DNA from: an uncultured Anaerolineae bacterium
GTDB taxonomy: Bacteria > Chloroflexota > Anaerolineae > Anaerolineales > Villigracilaceae
Length of the DNA: 64,000 nucleotides
Assembly: GCA_903822545.1 (NCBI GenBank)
Contig: CAIJPN010000146.1
Span: 1-64,000, forward strand
Direction: 5' to 3'
Shown here: positions 115-10,770 of the stretch, piece by piece
How positions within the stretch are numbered: position 1 is the stretch's first letter
Layout of the letters: each line of letters opens with the position of its first letter
Program-made: the position numbers and the translations under genes
Notes under the pieces: generated by a model
Told to the model about the DNA's origin: nothing
Database searches by the model: none
The model's input: only the letters and a program-made list of their open reading frames with translations

Positions 115-3100
115 ATGACAACTAACCCCTATGTTGGCCCCCGCTCCTTTAAAACCGGCGAAGCCCTGCATGGGCGCGACTGGGAAATCAGCACCCTGCT
201 CGATTTGCTGATCGCCGAGCGGATTGTGTTGATGCACTCCCCTTCTGGCGCAGGGAAAACATCCCTGCTGCGCGCCGGGCTGCTGCCGCAGTTGCGCAAG
301 GAAAACTTCAACATCCTGCCGATGATTCGCGTAAATCTGGATCCACCCCCCGGCGCTGAAACTGCCAACCGCTATATTCTCTCCACCCTGCTCTCGCTGG
401 AAGAGGGCCAGCCGCCCGAAAAGCGTTTCTCTATCTCCAGGCTGGTCACACTCAGCCTGGATTCTTACCTTGACGAGCGCCTGGCAGCCAGCCCTGACAC
501 AGGCGACCCCATCCTGGTGTTTGACCAGTTCGAGGAGATTTTGACTGTTTCGGCGTCTGACCGTGAAGGGAAACATGCCTTCTTTGCCCAGTTGGGCGAA
601 GCCTTGCGTAACAAGAAGCGCTGGGCGCTTTTTTCGATGCGAGAAGATTACCTGGGAGCGATCTCAACTTATTCACGCGCCATCCCCAACCGGCTGGCAA
701 CCCGTTTTCGCCTGGATTTGCTGGGTGAGAAGGCTGCCATCCAGGCCATGCGCGAACCGGCCAGGGCACTTGGGGTAGACTTCACCCCCAGCGCTGCTCA
801 AAAGCTGGTGGATGACCTGCGCCGGGTTAAGGTGCAGCTGCCCGATGGCAGCATGGAGTCGCAGCCCGGGCCATACGTCGAGCCGGTACAACTCCAGGTG
901 GTTTGCTTCCGCCTGTGGGAAGGCAAAGCCCCCGACGACATGGACATCGACGAGCACGATCTGGCCAGCGTGGGGGATGTCAACCAATCCCTGGCAGAAT
1001 ACTACGCCTTGAGCGTTTCACGCGTGGCCCAGGCCAGTGACGTATCGGAGCGCAGCATCCGCGAGTGGTTCGAGCACAAGTTGATTACCCCAGACGGCAT
1101 CCGCGGGCAGGTGCGCATGGGCGCAGAGTTGAGCGATGGCCTGCCCAACCCGGCTGTGCGCAAACTGGAGGATGCCCACATCATCCGCGCCGAGCAGCGC
1201 GCCGGGCAGTCCTGGTACGAACTCTCGCATGACCGGTTGATCGAGCCGGTGCGCGCCGATAACCGAGGATGGTTTAGTGTGCATTTGAGCCTGTTCCAGC
1301 AGCAGGCGGTGCTGTGGAGCCAGCAGGGTAAGTCTGATGGGCTGCTGCTGCGCGGCAAGGAGTTGGAAAAAGCCGAAGACGAAACCAAATCACTCACTAT
1401 GACCGCTGATGAACAGGCTTTCCTGGAAGCCTGCCGCAAACTGCGTGAGCGCGAACAGCGTGACCGCCGCCAGCGGCAGTTCATCATCGCCGGGCTGGTG
1501 GCTTCGCTGGTGCTGCTGGTGGTGGCCATTTTCTTTGGCTTCAGCGCCAACGCCGCCACCCAGGATGCGAAAGAAAAAGCAGCAGTGGCGCAAACCTCGC
1601 AGGCTGATGCAGAAGTGGCCAAATCGGAGGCTGAATCGGCCAAATCCACCGCCGTTTCCAACGAAAAGGATGCCCAGCTACAGAAAGCCAATGCGGAAAC
1701 CGCCTCCCGTCGGGCGCTCTCGGGCCAGTTGGCGCTGGCCTCGATAAGTGTTTTGGAACAGTATCCCCAGCGCGCCCAGCTGCTCGCGCTGGAGGCGTTA
1801 CAGGTTAACCTGGATGCCAGGGAACCCACCACTGCCATTGCCGAAGAAGCCTTGCGCGCCGCCAACGCAAAAGTTAATGGTTACGGCCTGCCCGGCTTTT
1901 CGCGGGAAGTCTCCTTCCTGGAATTTACACGGGATAACCAGTGGTTGATGGCTGGCTCCTGGTATTCGGGGGAGTTCCATGCCTGGAATATCGCTGAAAT
2001 GAACCAGCCGGGGTATCGCTTCTTCCAAGCCATCGTTCCTCCTCCCTTGGAAGGGGAAACAATCCATTATTTCAGCGACCAACAAACCTGGTTCGTGGTT
2101 GACCGGGGCATTGACACGCACTTGTGGCAAATGTCCACGCTGAAGGCTGGCGCGGAACCACTGGTTTTCGAGGGCAGCGTGATTTTCCTGGCAGATGACC
2201 AGGCACTATTGGAACAAAAACCAGACCAAACCGTCCTGTGGCGTTTTAATTCGCAAAAAATGCCCGAAAAAACACCTTTTGTTCTGGATGGAAAATACAC
2301 AAACATCCAACCCGACCTGACCACTGTCATTACCACTACTGTGGATGGGCAGGTATTGGCCTGGGATACAACCAAAACCCCGCCCCAAAGCAGTTCTTTC
2401 AAAGGCCAACCCACACCCGCCAGCCCGGAATCGGGTCAACAGGCATCTTCGCCAACTGAAGTTCCCCTGGCTGATGTGTGGGAATCGATTCCCCGCAGGG
2501 GCTTCGAAGACCCATCGGTGATCAGCGCCACCAGTTCCGACCAGCAGTGGCACGCTGAAGGGGCGTATGGCGGTTCCCTGCGCCTGTGGAACCTGGTCGA
2601 AGAGCAAAAATTCCAGGTTGGCGAGGATGTTTCCAGGTTGGAATTCAGCGCAGATGGAAAATGGATGATTTCTGGCGCGAATCTATGGCAATTGAAGGAC
2701 GGTTTGCCGGTTGGGTTACCAATCGAGTATTCACCGGTAGCGGTTTATGATGCTGTCTTCAGCCCGGATGGCCGCTGGTTGCTTTACATGGGATCTGGCA
2801 TGCAATTGCTCGATCTCAGCCAGCCTATTGGGAATCTTGCAAGCAGTTCACTTTTTATTGATCTGACTCTTTTGGGGCCGGACAAGGCGTGGTATCTCGT
2901 TTTCAGCCCGGGCAGTCGCTGGCTGGTGGCAAGCGGCGGCGAAAACACAGGATTGTGGAACCTTGACGAGCCTCAGACTGGCCCGGTTGTGCTGCCTGAA
3001 AAGTCATTATCAGATGTGGCCTTTACCCCCGGCGATGAATACATTGTCGGGCTGAAAACATCCATCGGTCCAAATTATTGGGATAAAAATGCTCCCCCAA

Positions 3101-4362
3101 TCGGCTCTGATGTTTGGATCTGGGAGGTTTCCCCTCAATCTTCTCAGGTCACCCAAATTGGAGAGCTCAAGATTGACCTGCCAGCGCAGGTCAGTGCCAA
3201 TGGAATCTGGCTTATTGCCCAAAAAGGCGGGGTAAACAGTGATGGATACTATCAGGCAAATGCGGATGGTGAGTTATGGGATTTGCGCTGCGTTATCCAA
3301 AACACACCCTGCGATCCATTCCCAATCACTGGAATAGCCGAGCCTCCCGATACATCTGGTGGCCTTGCGCTTGAATTCAGCCCCGACTCTCGTTACCTTA
3401 CCAGTTATCTACCTTACAATTGGTCTACCCCCAGCCCGTTTCGCATCCTGGATTTACAGGAAGCCAGCGGCCAAAACAAGGTTGCCCCCAGGCTGGTTTA
3501 TGATGCCACTGCAAAGTATCTTTCTGCCATGCCCATCTGGAATACCGTTCAAAAAATCACCAGGATGATATATCTTTTTGGGGGTGGAGGCGGCGGTGGT
3601 GGTGGTGAACCGGGCAGCTATAAAGTGGATTATGGTATCCAGCTATTCGAACCATCTGCTGAGACAACCTCCCTGCAATCCCTGATTTTGCGCGGGCACG
3701 AAGAACCTGTTGACACCAGACTAACCAGTCCAAGCGGGCGCTGGACAGTTACCATTTCGCAGGATAGTGTCAAATTATGGGACTTGACCACACTTCAGGA
3801 TGATCCTTTCGCTGCCCCGGTAAACCTGCCCCTGGAATATTCCTCGAGTAATTTCGGGTTTAGCATGGATGAGCGCTGGCTGGTTTTTCTGATAAGCCAA
3901 ACGGATAGCGATCTATCGCGGCTTGTATTTGTGCCCCTGCAACTGGATACCCTGATGACCCAGGCCTGCCAATCGGTTGGGCGCAATTTCATCATCAACG
4001 AGTGGCAGCGCTACTTCCAGGGCGCACTTTACCATGAAACTTGCGCAAACCTGCCTGAGCATCAATCCGTACAAATCTTACTGCAACCCACCCCCACCGC
4101 CACAGTCCCCGCACCCACGGCAACGACTGCCAGCGATAATGGATTCACATCCACCCCAGGGCCTACCGCCACCCCAACACTGGAGCCGGGCTCCGTAATG
4201 GTTACCTACACCGTCAAAAATGGCGATACCCTGATTTCGATTGCCAACCGTTTGAACACCGACCTGGATACGCTTATGCGCGAGAACAACATCACCAACC
4301 CAGACCTGATTGCCATTGGACAGGTAATTATCCATAAGGCCACTGTCACTCCAACGCCATAG
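115..4362 (+). CDS. nSTAND-type ATPase with a transmembrane helix, propeller-like repeats and C-terminal LysM domain
   Basis: The protein has 1415 residues. The N-terminus (NPYVGPRSF, then a HGRD-type box) is typical of the nSTAND1 branch of STAND NTPases. The P-loop is at about residues 43-50 (GAGKT core) and Walker B at about 133-141 (ILVFDQFEE). A hydrophobic helix at about 457-477 is followed by an Ala/Gln/Lys-rich coiled coil to about 560, then degenerate WD40-like repeats (WNL, LWDL, FSPDGRWL motifs) over about 600-1290. There is a glycine run near 1155. A Pro/Thr linker leads to a LysM domain at about 1362-1405 (YTVKNGDTLISIA). STAND proteins act as ligand-gated switches. If the helix crosses the membrane once, the ATPase is cytoplasmic while propeller and LysM face the cell wall. 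The start follows the previous stop by 3 bases. The ligand is unknown. Confidence 0.85.
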   Translation: MTTNPYVGPRSFKTGEALHGRDWEISTLLDLLIAERIVLMHSPSGAGKTSLLRAGLLPQLRKENFNILPMIRVNLDPPPGAETANRYILSTLLSLEEGQPPEKRFSISRLVTLSLDSYLDERLAASPDTGDPILVFDQFEEILTVSASDREGKHAFFAQLGEALRNKKRWALFSMREDYLGAISTYSRAIPNRLATRFRLDLLGEKAAIQAMREPARALGVDFTPSAAQKLVDDLRRVKVQLPDGSMESQPGPYVEPVQLQVVCFRLWEGKAPDDMDIDEHDLASVGDVNQSLAEYYALSVSRVAQASDVSERSIREWFEHKLITPDGIRGQVRMGAELSDGLPNPAVRKLEDAHIIRAEQRAGQSWYELSHDRLIEPVRADNRGWFSVHLSLFQQQAVLWSQQGKSDGLLLRGKELEKAEDETKSLTMTADEQAFLEACRKLREREQRDRRQRQFIIAGLVASLVLLVVAIFFGFSANAATQDAKEKAAVAQTSQADAEVAKSEAESAKSTAVSNEKDAQLQKANAETASRRALSGQLALASISVLEQYPQRAQLLALEALQVNLDAREPTTAIAEEALRAANAKVNGYGLPGFSREVSFLEFTRDNQWLMAGSWYSGEFHAWNIAEMNQPGYRFFQAIVPPPLEGETIHYFSDQQTWFVVDRGIDTHLWQMSTLKAGAEPLVFEGSVIFLADDQALLEQKPDQTVLWRFNSQKMPEKTPFVLDGKYTNIQPDLTTVITTTVDGQVLAWDTTKTPPQSSSFKGQPTPASPESGQQASSPTEVPLADVWESIPRRGFEDPSVISATSSDQQWHAEGAYGGSLRLWNLVEEQKFQVGEDVSRLEFSADGKWMISGANLWQLKDGLPVGLPIEYSPVAVYDAVFSPDGRWLLYMGSGMQLLDLSQPIGNLASSSLFIDLTLLGPDKAWYLVFSPGSRWLVASGGENTGLWNLDEPQTGPVVLPEKSLSDVAFTPGDEYIVGLKTSIGPNYWDKNAPPIGSDVWIWEVSPQSSQVTQIGELKIDLPAQVSANGIWLIAQKGGVNSDGYYQANADGELWDLRCVIQNTPCDPFPITGIAEPPDTSGGLALEFSPDSRYLTSYLPYNWSTPSPFRILDLQEASGQNKVAPRLVYDATAKYLSAMPIWNTVQKITRMIYLFGGGGGGGGGEPGSYKVDYGIQLFEPSAETTSLQSLILRGHEEPVDTRLTSPSGRWTVTISQDSVKLWDLTTLQDDPFAAPVNLPLEYSSSNFGFSMDERWLVFLISQTDSDLSRLVFVPLQLDTLMTQACQSVGRNFIINEWQRYFQGALYHETCANLPEHQSVQILLQPTPTATVPAPTATTASDNGFTSTPGPTATPTLEPGSVMVTYTVKNGDTLISIANRLNTDLDTLMRENNITNPDLIAIGQVIIHKATVTPTP

Positions 4363-4487
4363 TTGTTCAGTGGCGTCCCGGATTTTCGAAGCCTGGAAGC
4401 CATATGCTATAATTTGAGTCTGTGAGTCGCGAAATGCCAGGCAAAAGACAATTAATGCTTTTGGGGTGGCTGCTTTCTCAAAATAAT

Positions 4488-4537
4488 ATCGGTGCAAATC
4501 GGTGCAACACATCTATTTTGGATGGTTTTTTTGCACC
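4488..4537. repeat. Iteron-like GGTGCAA sites (two direct, one inverted)
   Basis: GGTGCAA occurs at 4491-4497 and 4501-4507 as part of an exact 10-bp tandem repeat, and inverted (TTGCACC) at 4531-4537. They lie 80-125 bp from the tRNA fragment. Clusters of short direct and inverted sites at this distance are typical of arm-type binding sites for tyrosine recombinases or excisionases. That role is inferred from position only. Confidence 0.45.
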
Positions 4538-4613
4538 AAATGGACTAAAATACCCCCATATATGGCGTGTCTGGACGAAATACCCGCCAGATATACGGCA
4601 TGGACGCTGGATG

Positions 4614-4661
4614 TTCTGACTTCGGATCAGTAGGTTGCGGGTTCGAGTCCTGCCTGGGGCG
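4614..4661 (+). tRNA. 3' fragment of tRNA-Arg(TCG), probable attachment-site remnant
   Basis: The 3' half of a tRNA is readable. It has an anticodon stem CTGA/TCAG (4616-4619, 4627-4630), a seven-base loop with anticodon TCG at 4622-4624, and a five-base variable region. The T-arm is GCGGG / TTCGAGT / CCTGC (4637-4653). A 3' acceptor strand CTGGGGC and discriminator G (4654-4661) follow. The matching 5' acceptor strand GCCCCAG and a D-arm are absent upstream, so this cannot make a tRNA. Such displaced 3' ends arise when an integrative element inserts into a tRNA gene and restores it at the other end. The orientation predicts an intact tRNA-Arg on the plus strand to the left of the window. Confidence 0.7.
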
Positions 4662-4744
4662 AAAGGCCCCCACGTTGATTATTTTCGAGCTATACTGTGT
4701 TTTTTGTCAGCGAAATCGGCCTATCAAAAGGCCAGGAGAATTTA

Positions 4745-5032
4745 ATGTCAACCTTTACTTATTGGATAGCACTCGAAATTCAAGGCGCGGGGCGGGTGGC
4801 CAGTTATTTCACAAATTCTGCCCCGCCGCATATCGGTGAAACCATCAACCTGACTTACGTTGCGCGTCATGCCGATAATCCCAACAAAATCGATCTTAAG
4901 AAGTTGTATCGGGTCATCAATGTTATTCATTGCCCTCAGGATTATGGCAAAATTCCCAATGAAGATGTGCCGCAATCCCGGTTAAACTTTGTTAAGATCC
5001 TTCTTGAGCAGATGGATGCGGCTGTCAGTTAG
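4745..5032 (+). CDS. Small conserved-looking protein of unknown function
   Basis: The protein has 95 residues and starts at an ATG preceded by AGGAG at about 4734-4738, a good ribosome-binding site. The sequence (MSTFTYWIALEIQ..., ending LEQMDAAVS) is mixed charged and aliphatic, with no signal peptide, membrane helix or cysteine cluster. It resembles a small soluble alpha/beta protein. It sits alone between the tRNA scar and a strong terminator at 5052-5091, so it is probably monocistronic. I do not recognise a family. Confidence 0.55.
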   Translation: MSTFTYWIALEIQGAGRVASYFTNSAPPHIGETINLTYVARHADNPNKIDLKKLYRVINVIHCPQDYGKIPNEDVPQSRLNFVKILLEQMDAAVS

Positions 5033-5166: not shown

Positions 5167-5610
5167 ATGTCATCCACCGCCGATTTTCTCCAGCGCCTGT
5201 GCCGGTTTATTGAATCTGAGTCGGATGCCCAGCGTTATGCGTTGGAGCGTCAGTGGGCGCGCACGCTGGGGGAGCAGGTTTCCATAAGCTCGCCGATTGA
5301 AGGTCTGCGCGTGGTTGGGTTTGAAAAAAATATCCCCGGCTGGTTGGCGATAGCAATCACGACCGCTTCCGCGAAGGCGATGCTGAACACTGCGGAAGAT
5401 TCCCGGCTTGGGCGCAGCACCATCCTGCCGTTCTTGCAGGGATCCATCACTCCAAAAAAAGGAAGTACCCACAATGACCAACGCGAACCAAGATATTCAA
5501 CGTTACCGGCAAAACCTGCAAAAGGAAGTGGATGGCGCAGCGCTCTATGCCGTGCTTGCGCAGAAGGAAACACGCCCGGAGATGCAAACCGTCTTCCAGC
5601 GGCTGTCTGA
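5167..5610 (+). pseudogene. Probable truncated gene: N-terminal fragment, possibly of a large ATPase/helicase
   Basis: A frame opening at ATG 5167 encodes a protein-like stretch for about 90-100 residues (MSSTADFLQRLCRF..., containing PIEGLRVVGFEK). It then becomes Lys/Pro/Arg-rich and low in sense while overlapping the start of the next gene (5474). The N-terminal part reminds me of the first segment of long AAA/DNA2-type helicases in Chloroflexota, but this is recollection of style, not a match I can verify. The best explanation is a remnant left by deletion between the tRNA scar and the VIT gene. A short genuine gene or a fortuitous frame are alternatives. Confidence 0.35.
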
Positions 5611-6601
5611 AAGCGAACAGCGTCATGCCCAATTTTGGCGGACCAAACTTGCCGAGGCTGGCGCCACCCTGCCGGAACCCCAGCCCACCTGGCAGACGCG
5701 CACCCTGATCTGGCTGGCGCGCCGTTTTGGGCCGCAGTTTGTCCTGCCCACAGTGACCAGCCACGAAAACGCCGATAGCGGCTCTTATGCCAACCAGCCC
5801 GAAGCGGAAGCGGCGGCCATGTCAGCGGAGGAGCAGTCGCATGCCCGGTTGCTCTCCGCGGCCAGCAGCGGCGGCGGGGTTTCCGGCAGCATTGTTGCTG
5901 AAACCGAGGGGCGGCATCGCTCCGCGGGCGGCAATGCGCTGCGCGCGGCGGTCTTGGGCGCCAATGATGGCCTGGTTTCCAACCTGAGCCTGGTCATGGG
6001 CGTCGCCGGGGCGGAGTTGGCCGGTCAGGGCATTCTCATCACCGGCCTGGCCGGGCTGTTGGCTGGAGCCGGTTCGATGGCCCTGGGCGAATGGCTTTCG
6101 GTGCAAAGCTCACGCGAGTTGTACGAGCGTCAGATCGGCATCGAAAAAGAAGAACTGGAAGCTAATCCCGAAGAGGAAATCGAAGAACTGGCCCTGATCT
6201 ACCAGGCCAAGGGCCTGCCCGAAGCGCGCGCCCGCGACCTGTCGCGCAGCCTGCTGGCCAACAAAGCCACCGCCCTGGACACCCTGGCGCGTGAAGAATT
6301 GGGCATCGACCCGAATGAATTGGGCGGCTCGGCCTGGGAAGCGGCGTTTACCTCCTTCTTTTTATTTGCGGTTGGGGCGATTATCCCGGTCATTCCCTTC
6401 ATCTTTTTGAGCGGGATGATCGCTGTCTATATCAGCGTTGTCATCAGCGGCCTGGGCCTGTTTGGGATTGGCGCGGCCATCACCCTGATGACCGGGCGCA
6501 GCATTTGGTACTCTGGCACCCGCCAGGTTTTGTTTGGGCTGGCTGCCGCCGCCCTGACCTTTGGCATTGGCCGTTTGATTGGCGTTTCCATCGGCGGATA
6601 A
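5474..6601 (+). CDS. mbfA: Ferritin-like domain fused to a VIT1/CCC1 metal transporter (MbfA-like)
   Basis: The protein has 375 residues from ATG 5474, which I prefer over an upstream frame extension because the protein then begins directly with the ferritin-like helix. Residues about 8-130 form a rubrerythrin/erythrin-type four-helix domain with paired Glu/ExxH motifs (SESEQRH near 45-51 and AEEQSHARLL in the second half). From about 156 onward comes the VIT1/CCC1 domain (LGANDGLVSNLSLVMGVAGA) with several membrane helices and the acidic cytoplasmic loop NPEEEIEELA. Members of this fusion family export iron (or manganese) across the cytoplasmic membrane, the ferritin domain sensing or loading metal. 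No metal-regulated operator is obvious upstream. Confidence 0.88.
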   Translation: MTNANQDIQRYRQNLQKEVDGAALYAVLAQKETRPEMQTVFQRLSESEQRHAQFWRTKLAEAGATLPEPQPTWQTRTLIWLARRFGPQFVLPTVTSHENADSGSYANQPEAEAAAMSAEEQSHARLLSAASSGGGVSGSIVAETEGRHRSAGGNALRAAVLGANDGLVSNLSLVMGVAGAELAGQGILITGLAGLLAGAGSMALGEWLSVQSSRELYERQIGIEKEELEANPEEEIEELALIYQAKGLPEARARDLSRSLLANKATALDTLAREELGIDPNELGGSAWEAAFTSFFLFAVGAIIPVIPFIFLSGMIAVYISVVISGLGLFGIGAAITLMTGRSIWYSGTRQVLFGLAAAALTFGIGRLIGVSIGG

Positions 6602-6684
6602 ATTGACCTATTCGATGGCGCGCATCCTGCCTGACACCCTGCCCGGCGAAGTTTTGCGAGTCAAGGCTTTGCCGGACTTGCTTT

Positions 6685-6933
6685 TCATCTGGCACCACCT
6701 TGCTTCTTTATGTGGGCGAGTTTCTGGGGACGTTTAAGATGGCTTGGGACAGTTGGGTTGGCCGTTGCTGACGCGGCTTTTATATCTGCTAGCGCTACGG
6801 ATGCAGGCTTTTGACTGGAACTGGTTGTAATGCCGCGCAAACGATTTAAAATAGAAGTATCTACTTTGGCAATGTCAGATGGGTGCATTTCTGAAAACAC
6901 AGGATATCTTTCGTAAATGTAGGGGCGACCCAC
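6685..6933 (-). CDS. Doubtful small ORF, partly inside the MITE
   Basis: This minus-strand frame encodes 82 residues; its first codons lie inside the inserted element. The Ala/Ser/Lys-rich C-terminal part (SHLKRPQKLAHIKKQ) has no recognised domain and the frame has no good ribosome-binding site. If the element and one copy of its 9-bp target repeat are removed, the frame stays open upstream through the palindrome (GluSer-AspIleAlaLys), so it may be the tail of a gene split by the insertion. Evidence is thin. Confidence 0.15.
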   Translation of the reverse strand: MGRPYIYERYPVFSEMHPSDIAKVDTSILNRLRGITTSSSQKPASVALADIKAASATANPTVPSHLKRPQKLAHIKKQGGAR

Positions 6934-7197: not shown

Positions 7198-10100
7198 ATG
7201 TCGGCCAAGCAATTTGATGTCAATTCCTTGCCGCTTTCAGCCTCCGTCAAAGGCTCGATCAGCGTTATCGATGCAGACCAGGAAATCCCGGCCTGGCAGG
7301 TGGCCTGGGGGATTTTGCAATTACACAAGGAATACGCTGGCAGGCTGGGCGAAAAACTCAGCGCCGGCACCGGCCCATCTTTCAAGAATGTGCGCACCGT
7401 CGAAGAGTGGTTCATGATGCTGGCTGAGTTGTTTAATCTCGAACTGCTCCGACAGCAGGTTGAATGGCTGGATGGGCGTTTGACGATCTGGGGGCTGGCC
7501 CAGCTCGATGCCGAGATGAAAGCGTATCTTGATTCTTTTGGGTTCCTGTATCTGCTGGAAGAAGAATATTTCGATGTGGCCAGTGTTTACCCGGGTGATT
7601 TAACCAAAACCCCAACCGCCCGTTCGGTGCGTCCCGAAAACCTCCCAGACCTGTATGCCCCTGAAGATCCATCCGATCAGGTGGCGATGATGCACCGGGG
7701 CGTCAAACTCTGTGTAGCGAAGACTGCCAAAGGCTGGAGACTGCCCGCCGATGCTTTCCTCCTGCGCGCCGGAATTGGCAACAAGGTTGTGGCTGGCTCC
7801 ATCTATGACGAGTTGCAACAAGATATTGAGCGCCCCGCGCGCAGCCAGGTGACCGATTTCTTGCGCGATTTTATGAATTCGAACGAGCCACCTACCACCG
7901 TTCGGCCTCTTTCGGTTAATTTGGATGAATCCCTGGCGAAAAAGGTGCTGCCGTTTACTCCCACTGGCACAGCCTGCCTGATTATCGCCGCTTACGAAAC
8001 CATGCAAACCGCCACCCTGGCCGAAGTCCGCCCGGTGATACGTGGAATTGTGAACGCTGCCCAGGCCAGGAATGTTTCTCACCTGGTGATGCCAAACCTG
8101 ATCTCCAGGACTAAACCTGCGCAGGAACGGGTGGAGAAAGCCCGTTACATGCTCGATGCGCTGCTGGAAATCACCGAATTTGGCTCACTTAAAACCATCA
8201 CCCTGGTTACCACCTCCCCGCAATTGTTGGAAATGGCGCGCCAGCGGCTGGACTTGCGTGAGAACAACCTGTCACAGGCGCTTTCCAATGACCAGGCCGA
8301 TGGAGATGATATGCTCAATATCTCTGCCGAAATCTATGCCCTGGCCGATACCCTGCTTTTGCACGAAGTCCGCGCACCGCTGGCGGTTGGCATTATGGGC
8401 GGTTGGGGCAGTGGCAAATCTTTTGTGATGCACCTGCTCAAGCAGCGCATGGCCAACATCCGCGCGCGGCGGGTGCTGAAGGGTTGGCCGCCTTTCAGCG
8501 GGGATGCGCCCCGGTCACCTTTTGTTGGGCATATTTACCAGGTTACTTTTAACGCCTGGACGTATGCCAAATCCAACCTGTGGGCCAGCCTGATGCACAC
8601 CATCTTTTTTGAACTAAACCGGCAGCTTTCACTGGAGAAGGTGCTCTCGCGCGGTTCGGTCGAGGCGCTGTTGGCGGGCGGGGATGTGTATAAAAACCTG
8701 TACCGCGAAGATTACCAGCTTCCACCTGAAAGTTACAGCCAGGCCGGGGATGTAATGGATAACAACCTGCTCTGGCTGACGATGCGCAGCCAGAAAAAGA
8801 CCGAACTGGAAAAGTTGAACGCATTGGAAACCCAAATTGCCAGCCAGCGATCCAGCCGCGAAACGGCCAGCAAAGCCCGGCTTGAAAAAGTCCAGGCAGA
8901 AATCGGCAGCCAGGCTCAATTTGCCGCATCTGAAATATTAAAGAAAAAAGCCACGGCGCTGGCTGAAAATATTATTGATTCGGATGGCAAGCTGCTTTTG
9001 TCTCAAGCGAAGCTGGATGTGGGCCAGGTGGAAACACTGTTGGCCTCGCTGCGCAGCCTGCGCACTACCTGGGGATATATTTCCAGCGTTGTCAAAAAAT
9101 CGTGGACAAATATGGCGCTGGCGCTGCTGCTGGCGATTTTCCTGGCTGGCAGCCTGGTCACAAACCTTCCGAGTGTGGCCGAACTGCTCAAACTGGATTG
9201 GCTATCTCGCCTGACGGCGCAGTTGGGCGCGCTGGTGGCCCTGGCCCTGCCGATCATTCGCCTGGCTGATAGTTGGAGCACTCGGGTGAAGGAAATTGTG
9301 CAGGAGTACCAGGCTAGCGTGGATACTGAGCTGGAAAACTGGCAATCTACCCGCGATATACGCCTGGCCGAGCAGCAAGCCCAGGATGAAGCCGCGGTGC
9401 AAGAAATCATCGGCGCGCCGGGGCTTTCACTGCAGGCCAAACGCGCGGCGCTGCAAAACCTGGCGGCTACGAATGTAACCGCCAACGACAAGTTGGTGGA
9501 GATGCTACAGTCCGAGGCGGAAGAACAGCGCCGCAAAGTAGGCCCGACTGCGCATTATTTGACGTTGCTCGAATTTGTCCGCTCGCGGTTGGCAGATGAT
9601 AGTTATGAGAAACAGCTCGGGTTGATGCACCAGGTCAAGCAGGATTTTGACGAGTTGACCGCCAGTTTGATGCGTGATGACGATGGCACGCAGGAACTTT
9701 TCCCACGCGGGGAGCCTCGCATTGTGCTTTTCATTGATGATCTTGACCGCTGCCCGCCATTGCGTGTGGTGGAAGTGCTCGAAGCTGTGCAGCTTTTGCT
9801 CAATACCAAACTTTTTGTGATTGTGATGGGGCTGGATACGCGTTATGTCACCCGCGCGCTGGAAAAGGAGTACAAGGAAATCCTACAGCATGAAGGCGAC
9901 CCATCAGGGCTGGATTACATCGAGAAAATCATCCAAATCCCATACCGCGTGCGACCCATGGAACCGGGCGGGTTGCAAAATTTCCTGCAAAAACAAATGC
10001 AGATTGAAAACACTGCCAGCAAACCCAGGCCGGGATCTGATCCGGCGGCTGAAACGCCCAAAGGCGAGCCCAAAAGCACCAGTGATGGGCTGGCCGCCCC

Positions 10101-10770
10101 GGCACCCGGCGAAGCCCCGGTGGGGGATAATTCCCAAAAGACGGTGGATGTTTCCCAGGGTGTATCGCCTGAAACTCCAACCAACGTTCCACCAATCGAA
10201 TTTTCTGCCGAAGTGGTCAAATTCCAGCAGGATGACCTGACCGACCTGGCGCTGTGTTGCCAGCAGGTGGACCTGACACCCCGCAGCGTTAAGCGGCTGG
10301 TGAATGTGCTGAAACTTATCAAAATCTTTTGGTTTCGCAGCCTGGGCGGGGATCGCACCCGCCCGGTGAAACAAAGCGTAATGAGCCTGCTGGCGCTTTC
10401 GGCGGCTTATCCCGAGATCATGCGCGAAATATTTATCGAGATGGATTCTTATTTCAAGGGCGGGAATGTACTGCGGGAAGAAGCTGTCATTTCGCAGTTG
10501 AAAACGATCCGGTTGCGCAGCGCCATTGAAACCAGTTTTGCCTGGCAGCTGGTGCTTTTTCGCCGCGATGTGGATGTTTTGCAAGCCCAGAAATTTGGCC
10601 TTGTCACCATTGCCGAACTGGATCAGACCACCCTGAACATTGTGCGCTCATTCTCTTTTGTGGGCGACCCCAGCTACTGGACTGACCAGAAACCGGAACC
10701 CGCCCCCAGGCCAGCCGAAAGCGCATCCACTGAGAAAGGTATTGATGTCTCCCAATCCGCAGCCCAATAA
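7198..10770 (+). CDS. KAP-family P-loop NTPase, membrane-associated
   Basis: The protein has 1190 residues, starting at ATG 7198 with AAAGGA upstream. The first ~390 residues form an uncharacterised region. About 260-345 contain a Rossmann-like pattern ([37 protein letters not shown]) that recalls macro domains. The KAP module follows: Walker A GGWGSGKS at 401-408, a long helical insert with a hydrophobic pair at about 636-657 and 675-690, Walker B with [12 protein letters not shown] at 841-852, and a C-terminal helical part with [17 protein letters not shown] Pro/Gln/Ser-rich insert lies around 940-1000. KAP NTPases are usually tethered to the inner membrane face through such inserted helices; several take part in phage defence or signalling. 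It overlaps the downstream VF530-type gene. Confidence 0.85.

Follow-up and report, generated by a model that had tools for sequence, protein, structure and literature searches.

A displaced 3' end of tRNA-Arg(TCG) as the probable right attachment site of a tyrosine-recombinase island in an uncultured Anaerolineae bacterium

In the Islander account (PMC4383910), islands residing in tRNA genes display an intact tRNA at one end and a displaced 3' fragment at the other, with a tyrosine integrase gene beside the intact tRNA and the cargo in between. The locus analysed here shares this organization, and its sequence identity begins around the anticodon, which corresponds to the position designated the 'A' subsite in the same text, but its integrase is truncated, the middle of the island is unassembled and its ends lie on different contigs. 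As described in a second source, the anticodon loop and stem of a tRNA resemble the overlap and core site of an integrase (PMC8371274). Nothing in the literature searched was judged to concern this element or Anaerolineae islands at tRNA-Arg. In the Tn916-type arrangement, paired arm repeats are bound by the N-terminal domain of the integrase. Against this background, the assignment to an otherwise ordinary tRNA-gene island, with a well known route of insertion, is well supported, the mildly interesting aspect being an arm motif common to integrases located beside different tRNA genes.

The tRNA-Arg(TCG) gene and its displaced 3' end

The window, meaning the whole stretch of 64,000 nucleotides that was analysed, comprises bases 1-64,000 of contig C146 (83,478 bases) in a genome of 5.53 Mb assembled into 237 contigs. 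The following features make up the presumed end of the island.

4489-4508, plus strand: two GGTGCAA words forming a pair, putative arm sites for the integrase; identical over 20 bp to C4:1302-1283 (minus strand)
4531-4537, minus strand: third GGTGCAA word, inverted, a putative arm site (from the word count)
4551-4567, no strand assigned: 17-bp sequence with an inverted match across the core, at 15 of 17 positions, to C4:1340-1324 (from the alignment)
4616-4661, plus strand: displaced 3' end of tRNA-Arg(TCG), very probably the attR core, 46 bp; 100% identical to C4:1415-1370 (minus strand)
4662-4673, plus strand: continuation of the attL/attR identity into the hairpin past the tRNA; compared with attL, a gap of 15 bp (from the alignment)

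ARAGORN identified an intact tRNA-Arg(TCG) gene elsewhere in this genome, on contig C4 (1369-1442, minus strand), and its 46-base identity with the window stops one base short of the 3' end assigned by ARAGORN. When the hairpin is included, 4616-4673 aligns with C4:1415-1343 in 58 identical columns interrupted by a single 15-bp gap. An earlier note on this DNA had assigned 4614-4661 to the 3' end of a tRNA-Arg, of which 4616-4661 is exact while 4614-4615 falls outside the match. The same note had predicted an intact plus-strand tRNA-Arg(TCG) beyond the window; the gene does exist and follows the same orientation logic, but it sits on the separate contig C4, since the left edge of the window is a contig end. 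The search that the note proposed, for a tRNA-Arg(TCG) with a matching 3' end and an adjacent integrase, led to C4 for both, the integrase being present as a remnant. Intact gene and displaced fragment are thus found in one genome, on two contigs and both near contig ends. Apart from this, the genome matches 4480-4700 at E <= 0.001 only in 25 bp belonging to a tRNA-Trp gene. A relative (G065) gives the same picture, in that a hairpin located behind its tRNA-Arg (C366) and behind a 3' fragment (C357) is common to both, as judged by eye.

A working tRNA is absent at the fragment: ARAGORN returned zero tRNAs for the window, and the region of 4616-4661 gave a weak full-length tRNA alignment with an Rfam score of 18.8 bits, below the cut-off of 29. 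Fragments of tRNA genes can originate by other routes, and together with this weak alignment that could point to a stray duplication or a decayed tRNA gene in which no integrated element was involved. Such an origin is highly improbable in view of the repeat pair found at both ends, the integrase remnant adjoining the intact tRNA and the complete parallel in a relative (G085) described below.

The integrase remnant, which represents the tyrosine integrase gene at this end of the element, occupies C4:793-1215, between the tRNA and the cargo, and the corresponding Pfam match to Phage_integrase extends over C4:580-1215 (4e-16). Compared with three full-length relatives, it corresponds to the C-terminal part of the protein, from about residue 248 of about 390 onwards (C4:793 on), and no significant match to the upstream part of the integrase was found in C4:1-1700 (best E of 0.12). 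The missing part includes the GMRQGELLGLTW motif of the relatives, which we take to carry the first catalytic arginine, and the catalytic domain is accordingly incomplete. With its resident integrase reduced to a C-terminal remnant, the island is probably fixed at present, unless an integrase acts in trans; the truncation bears on present mobility and not on origin.

The exact copy of the tRNA 3' end, the pair of repeats and the integrase remnant together indicate that C4 and the window hold the attL and attR sites of one element. The region 4489-4673 is therefore very probably the attR site of a tyrosine-recombinase island residing in the 3' part of tRNA-Arg(TCG), and the intact tRNA, the integrase remnant, the repeat pair and the complete G085 parallel bear out the earlier proposal of such an island end. 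A tyrosine recombinase would have inserted the island into the 3' part of the gene, with strand exchange most likely at the anticodon loop; the new 3' part brought by the island would have made the tRNA whole again at attL, the left end (on C4), and the original 3' end of the host gene would have been displaced to the right end (attR, in the window).

The counterpart in G085 is complete on one contig and spans 43.5 kb from tRNA to fragment (C5:406358-449965). Its tRNA-Arg(TCG) starts at 406358 and its integrase gene occupies 407300-408469. The 3' fragment (449923-449965) shares the strand of the tRNA, the element lying between the two, and by eye the identity of tRNA and fragment starts in the anticodon loop. 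The two elements share the tRNA-Arg(TCG) target, an integrase beside the tRNA, type I restriction genes (416523-420913 in G085, where a likely specificity gene continues to 422085), a STAND/NACHT-type protein towards the fragment (the last large protein in G085, with Trypsin_2 and NACHT/nSTAND3 matches) and paired repeats at both ends. They differ in the integrase, which in G085 is full length (389 aa) and 42% identical over the shared part, and in the repeat word, TTACTGCAACC or TTACTGCAATC at both ends of the G085 element (by eye) in contrast to GGTGCAA here. Six of the ten G085 proteins scanned match PADLOC families at E <= 1e-5, including type I restriction models, a PtuA-like ATPase and, weakly, protease/Avs-like models. 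What appeared as a 46-bp scar can now be read as an island whose limits and two attachment sites are placed, in a bacterial group that has been little studied; tRNA-Arg(TCG) is added as an insertion target that is used repeatedly in this group.

The GGTGCAA repeats and related integrases

GGTGCAA words are located at 4491 (plus), 4501 (plus) and 4531 (minus); three such sites had earlier been placed within 125 bp, and they do occur, spanning only 47 bp. The window as a whole shows no enrichment of the word (8 observed and 14 expected by shuffling), so that the weight rests on the cluster and on its exact second copy by the intact tRNA. An exact GGTGCAAATCGGTGCAA is found at just two places in the 5.5-Mb assembly, at 4491-4507 of the window and at C4:1300-1284 (minus strand), and with up to three mismatches at 24 places, compared with six for the reversed control pattern. 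The pair on C4 starts 68 bases past the tRNA, between it and the integrase remnant, and that in the window ends 108 bases ahead of the core; the inverted 17-bp sequence lies on the island side of both cores (15 of 17 positions matching). The same short repeats flank the core at both ends, inside the element, which also applies to G085 upon reading of its ends.

As the element has these repeats at each of its ends, integrase arm sites are a better reading of them than the replication iterons suggested by the earlier label 'iteron-like'. They are here regarded as putative arm sites, through which the integrase, by its arm-binding domain, would keep the left and right ends together. Short direct repeats spaced by one helical turn are alike whether they serve as iterons, as binding sites for an excisionase or repressor, or as arm sites, and a helix-turn-helix gene adjoins the integrase in relatives (G056). 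Nevertheless, the element has copies at either end, separated from the core by 68 and 108 bases, and similar pairs lie close to the 3' end of the integrase gene in 15 of 29 related loci, which renders a role other than that of integrase arm sites unlikely; in addition, against iterons in particular, no replication gene was found in the stretches scanned (the middle of the island is not in the assembly). The putative arm sites resemble the Tn916-type arrangement in that short repeats are found outside the core at both ends, and in that the related integrases of G104 and G056 combine a weak Arm-DNA-bind_4 match with SAM-like and catalytic domains. On the other hand, the Arm-DNA-bind_4 match is below the cut-off in both proteins and was not reported in the integrase of G019, the target here is a tRNA gene and the arm sites are predicted from sequence.

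The integrase relatives in G104, G056 and G019, which are genomes of the host's family, are full length, share 61-64% identity with the remnant and are each located beside tRNA-Arg(TCG). A scan of the genome contigs for integrase relatives yielded 24 loci, and tRNA-Arg(TCG) was present in all four of those with at least 56% identity (G104, G056, G019 and JAGXRB010000076.1). At a threshold of E <= 1e-20, 52 integrase matches were obtained in 38 of 200 genomes, and the island's own match and 29 of the 51 others, one per genome, were surveyed. A tRNA was present in 22 of these 29 loci and was tRNA-Arg(TCG) in seven. Seven loci have a strict GGTGCAA pair and 15 a loose TGCAA pair, compared with 0 loci each time for the strict pair and 0 to 4 for the loose one when the whole set was dinucleotide-shuffled 20 times; 14 had neither. 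As the 29 loci are related, these counts do not represent independent events.

The strict pair is found by Arg, Lys, Met, Asn and Leu tRNA genes, and the looser pair by Val and His tRNA genes. Tentatively, and with more doubt than confidence, a lineage of tRNA-targeting integrases in this order may have kept one arm-site code, consisting of paired TGCAA words approximately one helical turn apart, while its members changed tRNA genes. If so, recognition of the arms and recognition of the core would evolve independently of each other, and relatives with the same arm code might mobilize in trans an island whose integrase is broken, such as this one. The shared motif could also be of use in locating where related islands end when assemblies are fragmented. 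Two results speak against a universal code. For the integrase on contig C62 of the same genome, which lies beside tRNA-Lys(CTT) and was considered as an internal control, neither a TGCAA pair nor a tRNA-Lys 3' fragment was found in C62:1-40000, a result that also weighs against the island reading. Furthermore, none of the 18 viral stretches containing CGGTGCAANNCGGTGCAA encodes a relative of the four integrases tried (E <= 1e-4), and the bare motif is hence not specific. No relative of the C4 integrase fragment was detected among the viral contigs, the tRNA core pattern was found in no viral stretch, and all matches of the G019 integrase to phage and plasmid records were below 60% identity.

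As a side observation, JAGXRB010000076.1 (L188) is a 3.4-kb contig titled Bacteroidetes on which tRNA-Arg(TCG) is accompanied by an integrase with 57% identity to the one in the Anaerolineales MAG; it is possibly mis-binned.

Extent and probable cargo of the island

On the attR side, the window contributes one large gene.

115-4362, plus strand: nSTAND1-WD40-LysM protein of 1415 aa, attR-side cargo (from the open reading frame and Pfam; membership of the island presumed from its position)

On the attL side, C209 begins with exactly the 141 bases that end C4, and the hsdR gene crosses the join (model positions 9-142 and 107-805), followed on C209 by MazE-like, PIN and hsdM genes. The layout consists of type I restriction-modification genes and a MazE/PIN pair towards attL and a STAND ATPase towards attR. 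The element lies to the left of the fragment, as had been proposed, and the STAND ATPase, also proposed as cargo, is assigned to it by position. No PADLOC family matched the nSTAND1-WD40-LysM protein at E <= 0.001. The cargo probably comprises phage-defence genes, and no phage structural or conjugation genes were found among the assembled proteins scanned, which exclude the missing middle of the island.

The assembled island amounts to approximately 10.6 kb, C4 contributing 1,368 bases past the tRNA, C209 a further 4,588 and the window 4,615, with the middle missing. No bridging contig was matched by the last 141 bases of C209 or the first 141 of the window, and since no contig joins the two, a single continuous element is unproven; an unassembled middle would connect them. 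A link between the tail of C209 and the end of C126 (75 bp, same orientation), apparently a repeat boundary common to both, was left aside.

Separately, positions 1-114 of the window, the end of a small gene upstream of the STAND gene, have 77% matches on contigs C221 and C3 of the same genome, which suggests that it may contain several such pairs of a small gene and a STAND gene.

The right flank and other sequences at tRNA-Arg

To the right of the fragment, three features were compared with other genomes.

4745-5032, plus strand: small gene with no Pfam match; homologue elsewhere only in G046
5167-5457, plus strand: AAA_11/AAA_12 helicase remnant, compared with G056:C132:10575-12317
6635-6703, plus strand: short UvrD-like helicase remnant; aligned with G056:C132 from 13747 on, 81 columns at 72% DNA identity

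The small gene was found in two of 101 genomes (its own and G046) and has no Pfam or PHROG match; its G046 homologue lies approximately 4 kb from tRNA-Ala(CGC), among genes reading as mobile and near an open reading frame that presumably encodes a serine recombinase. The first helicase remnant matches the G056 protein in three pieces, of 56 aa (68%), then of 19 aa in a different frame (74%) and of 25 aa (68%). In G056 an intact helicase pair, in the same order and on the same strand, begins 5.1 kb downstream of tRNA-Arg, behind an integrase, so that the counterpart of the window's right flank follows tRNA-Arg there, sharing its contig and strand. Open reading frames of at least 70 aa were taken from around tRNA-Arg(TCG) at 28 loci, some genomes being represented by two stretches, and compared with the window; matches were obtained at approximately 20-61 kb and none near the fragment. 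Of the relatives compared, only G056 (L174 and L189) has a match adjoining the fragment on its right side, at 5167-6703. No empty site was found among the genomes searched, which included no other of the same genus, and G056 carries its own integrase at the tRNA-Arg site sharing the right flank; the comparison supports placement of this flank at tRNA-Arg and is not an empty-site test. The lack of an empty site, the restriction of this flank to G056 among the relatives compared and its own mobile look weigh against the island reading.

Matches to the first helicase are patchily distributed (13 of 101 genomes, E <= 1e-10), which suggests that the pair is a mobile two-gene module. The decayed helicase pieces, their patchy spread and the G046 homologue point to a flank that is at least partly decayed and probably mobile, and there may be several layers at the tRNA-Arg locus. 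We lean slightly towards a refinement of the island reading in which a newer island on the left and older remains on the right both entered at tRNA-Arg(TCG). This is favoured by the mobile-looking surroundings of the only other homologue of the small gene, by the descent of 5167-5457 and 6635-6703 from a helicase pair that in G056 follows tRNA-Arg and an integrase, and by the patchiness of the first helicase, of which an 88% copy exists on C62 of the same genome. Against it, a second tRNA-Arg fragment was not found further to the right in this genome, nor in G056, and the helicase pair may simply be a regular chromosomal neighbour that is frequently lost.

Some further observations were made at these loci. 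The intact helicase pair of the host genome is located at C62:6641-10377 (L231), and its members are 88% and 85% identical to those of G056. Between the helicase remnants of the window, as if inserted, lies a gene for a VIT1 family protein with a rubrerythrin-like N-terminus (5474-6601, plus strand), and 7198-10770 (plus strand) encodes a KAP-family NTPase with weak PADLOC matches to QatA and PifA, a possible further defence gene. On C126 of the same genome (L107, 9000-14732), regular repeats of approximately CRISPR size are visible in the open reading frame translations.

Tandem arrays of 2.2 to 4 copies were observed directly 3' of tRNA-Arg(TCG) in G008 (L098:4739-4965), G030 (L073:1553-1729) and G032 (L100:4823-4992), and 3' of the displaced fragment in G085 (L172:11959-12189), with units of 65, 82, 71 and 57 bp, respectively, each consisting of part of the tRNA 3' end and a hairpin. 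The hairpin pattern was found in six of 101 genomes, in four of which it lies beside tRNA-Arg(TCG). The repeats of a tRNA 3' end downstream of tyrT in E. coli may offer a parallel.
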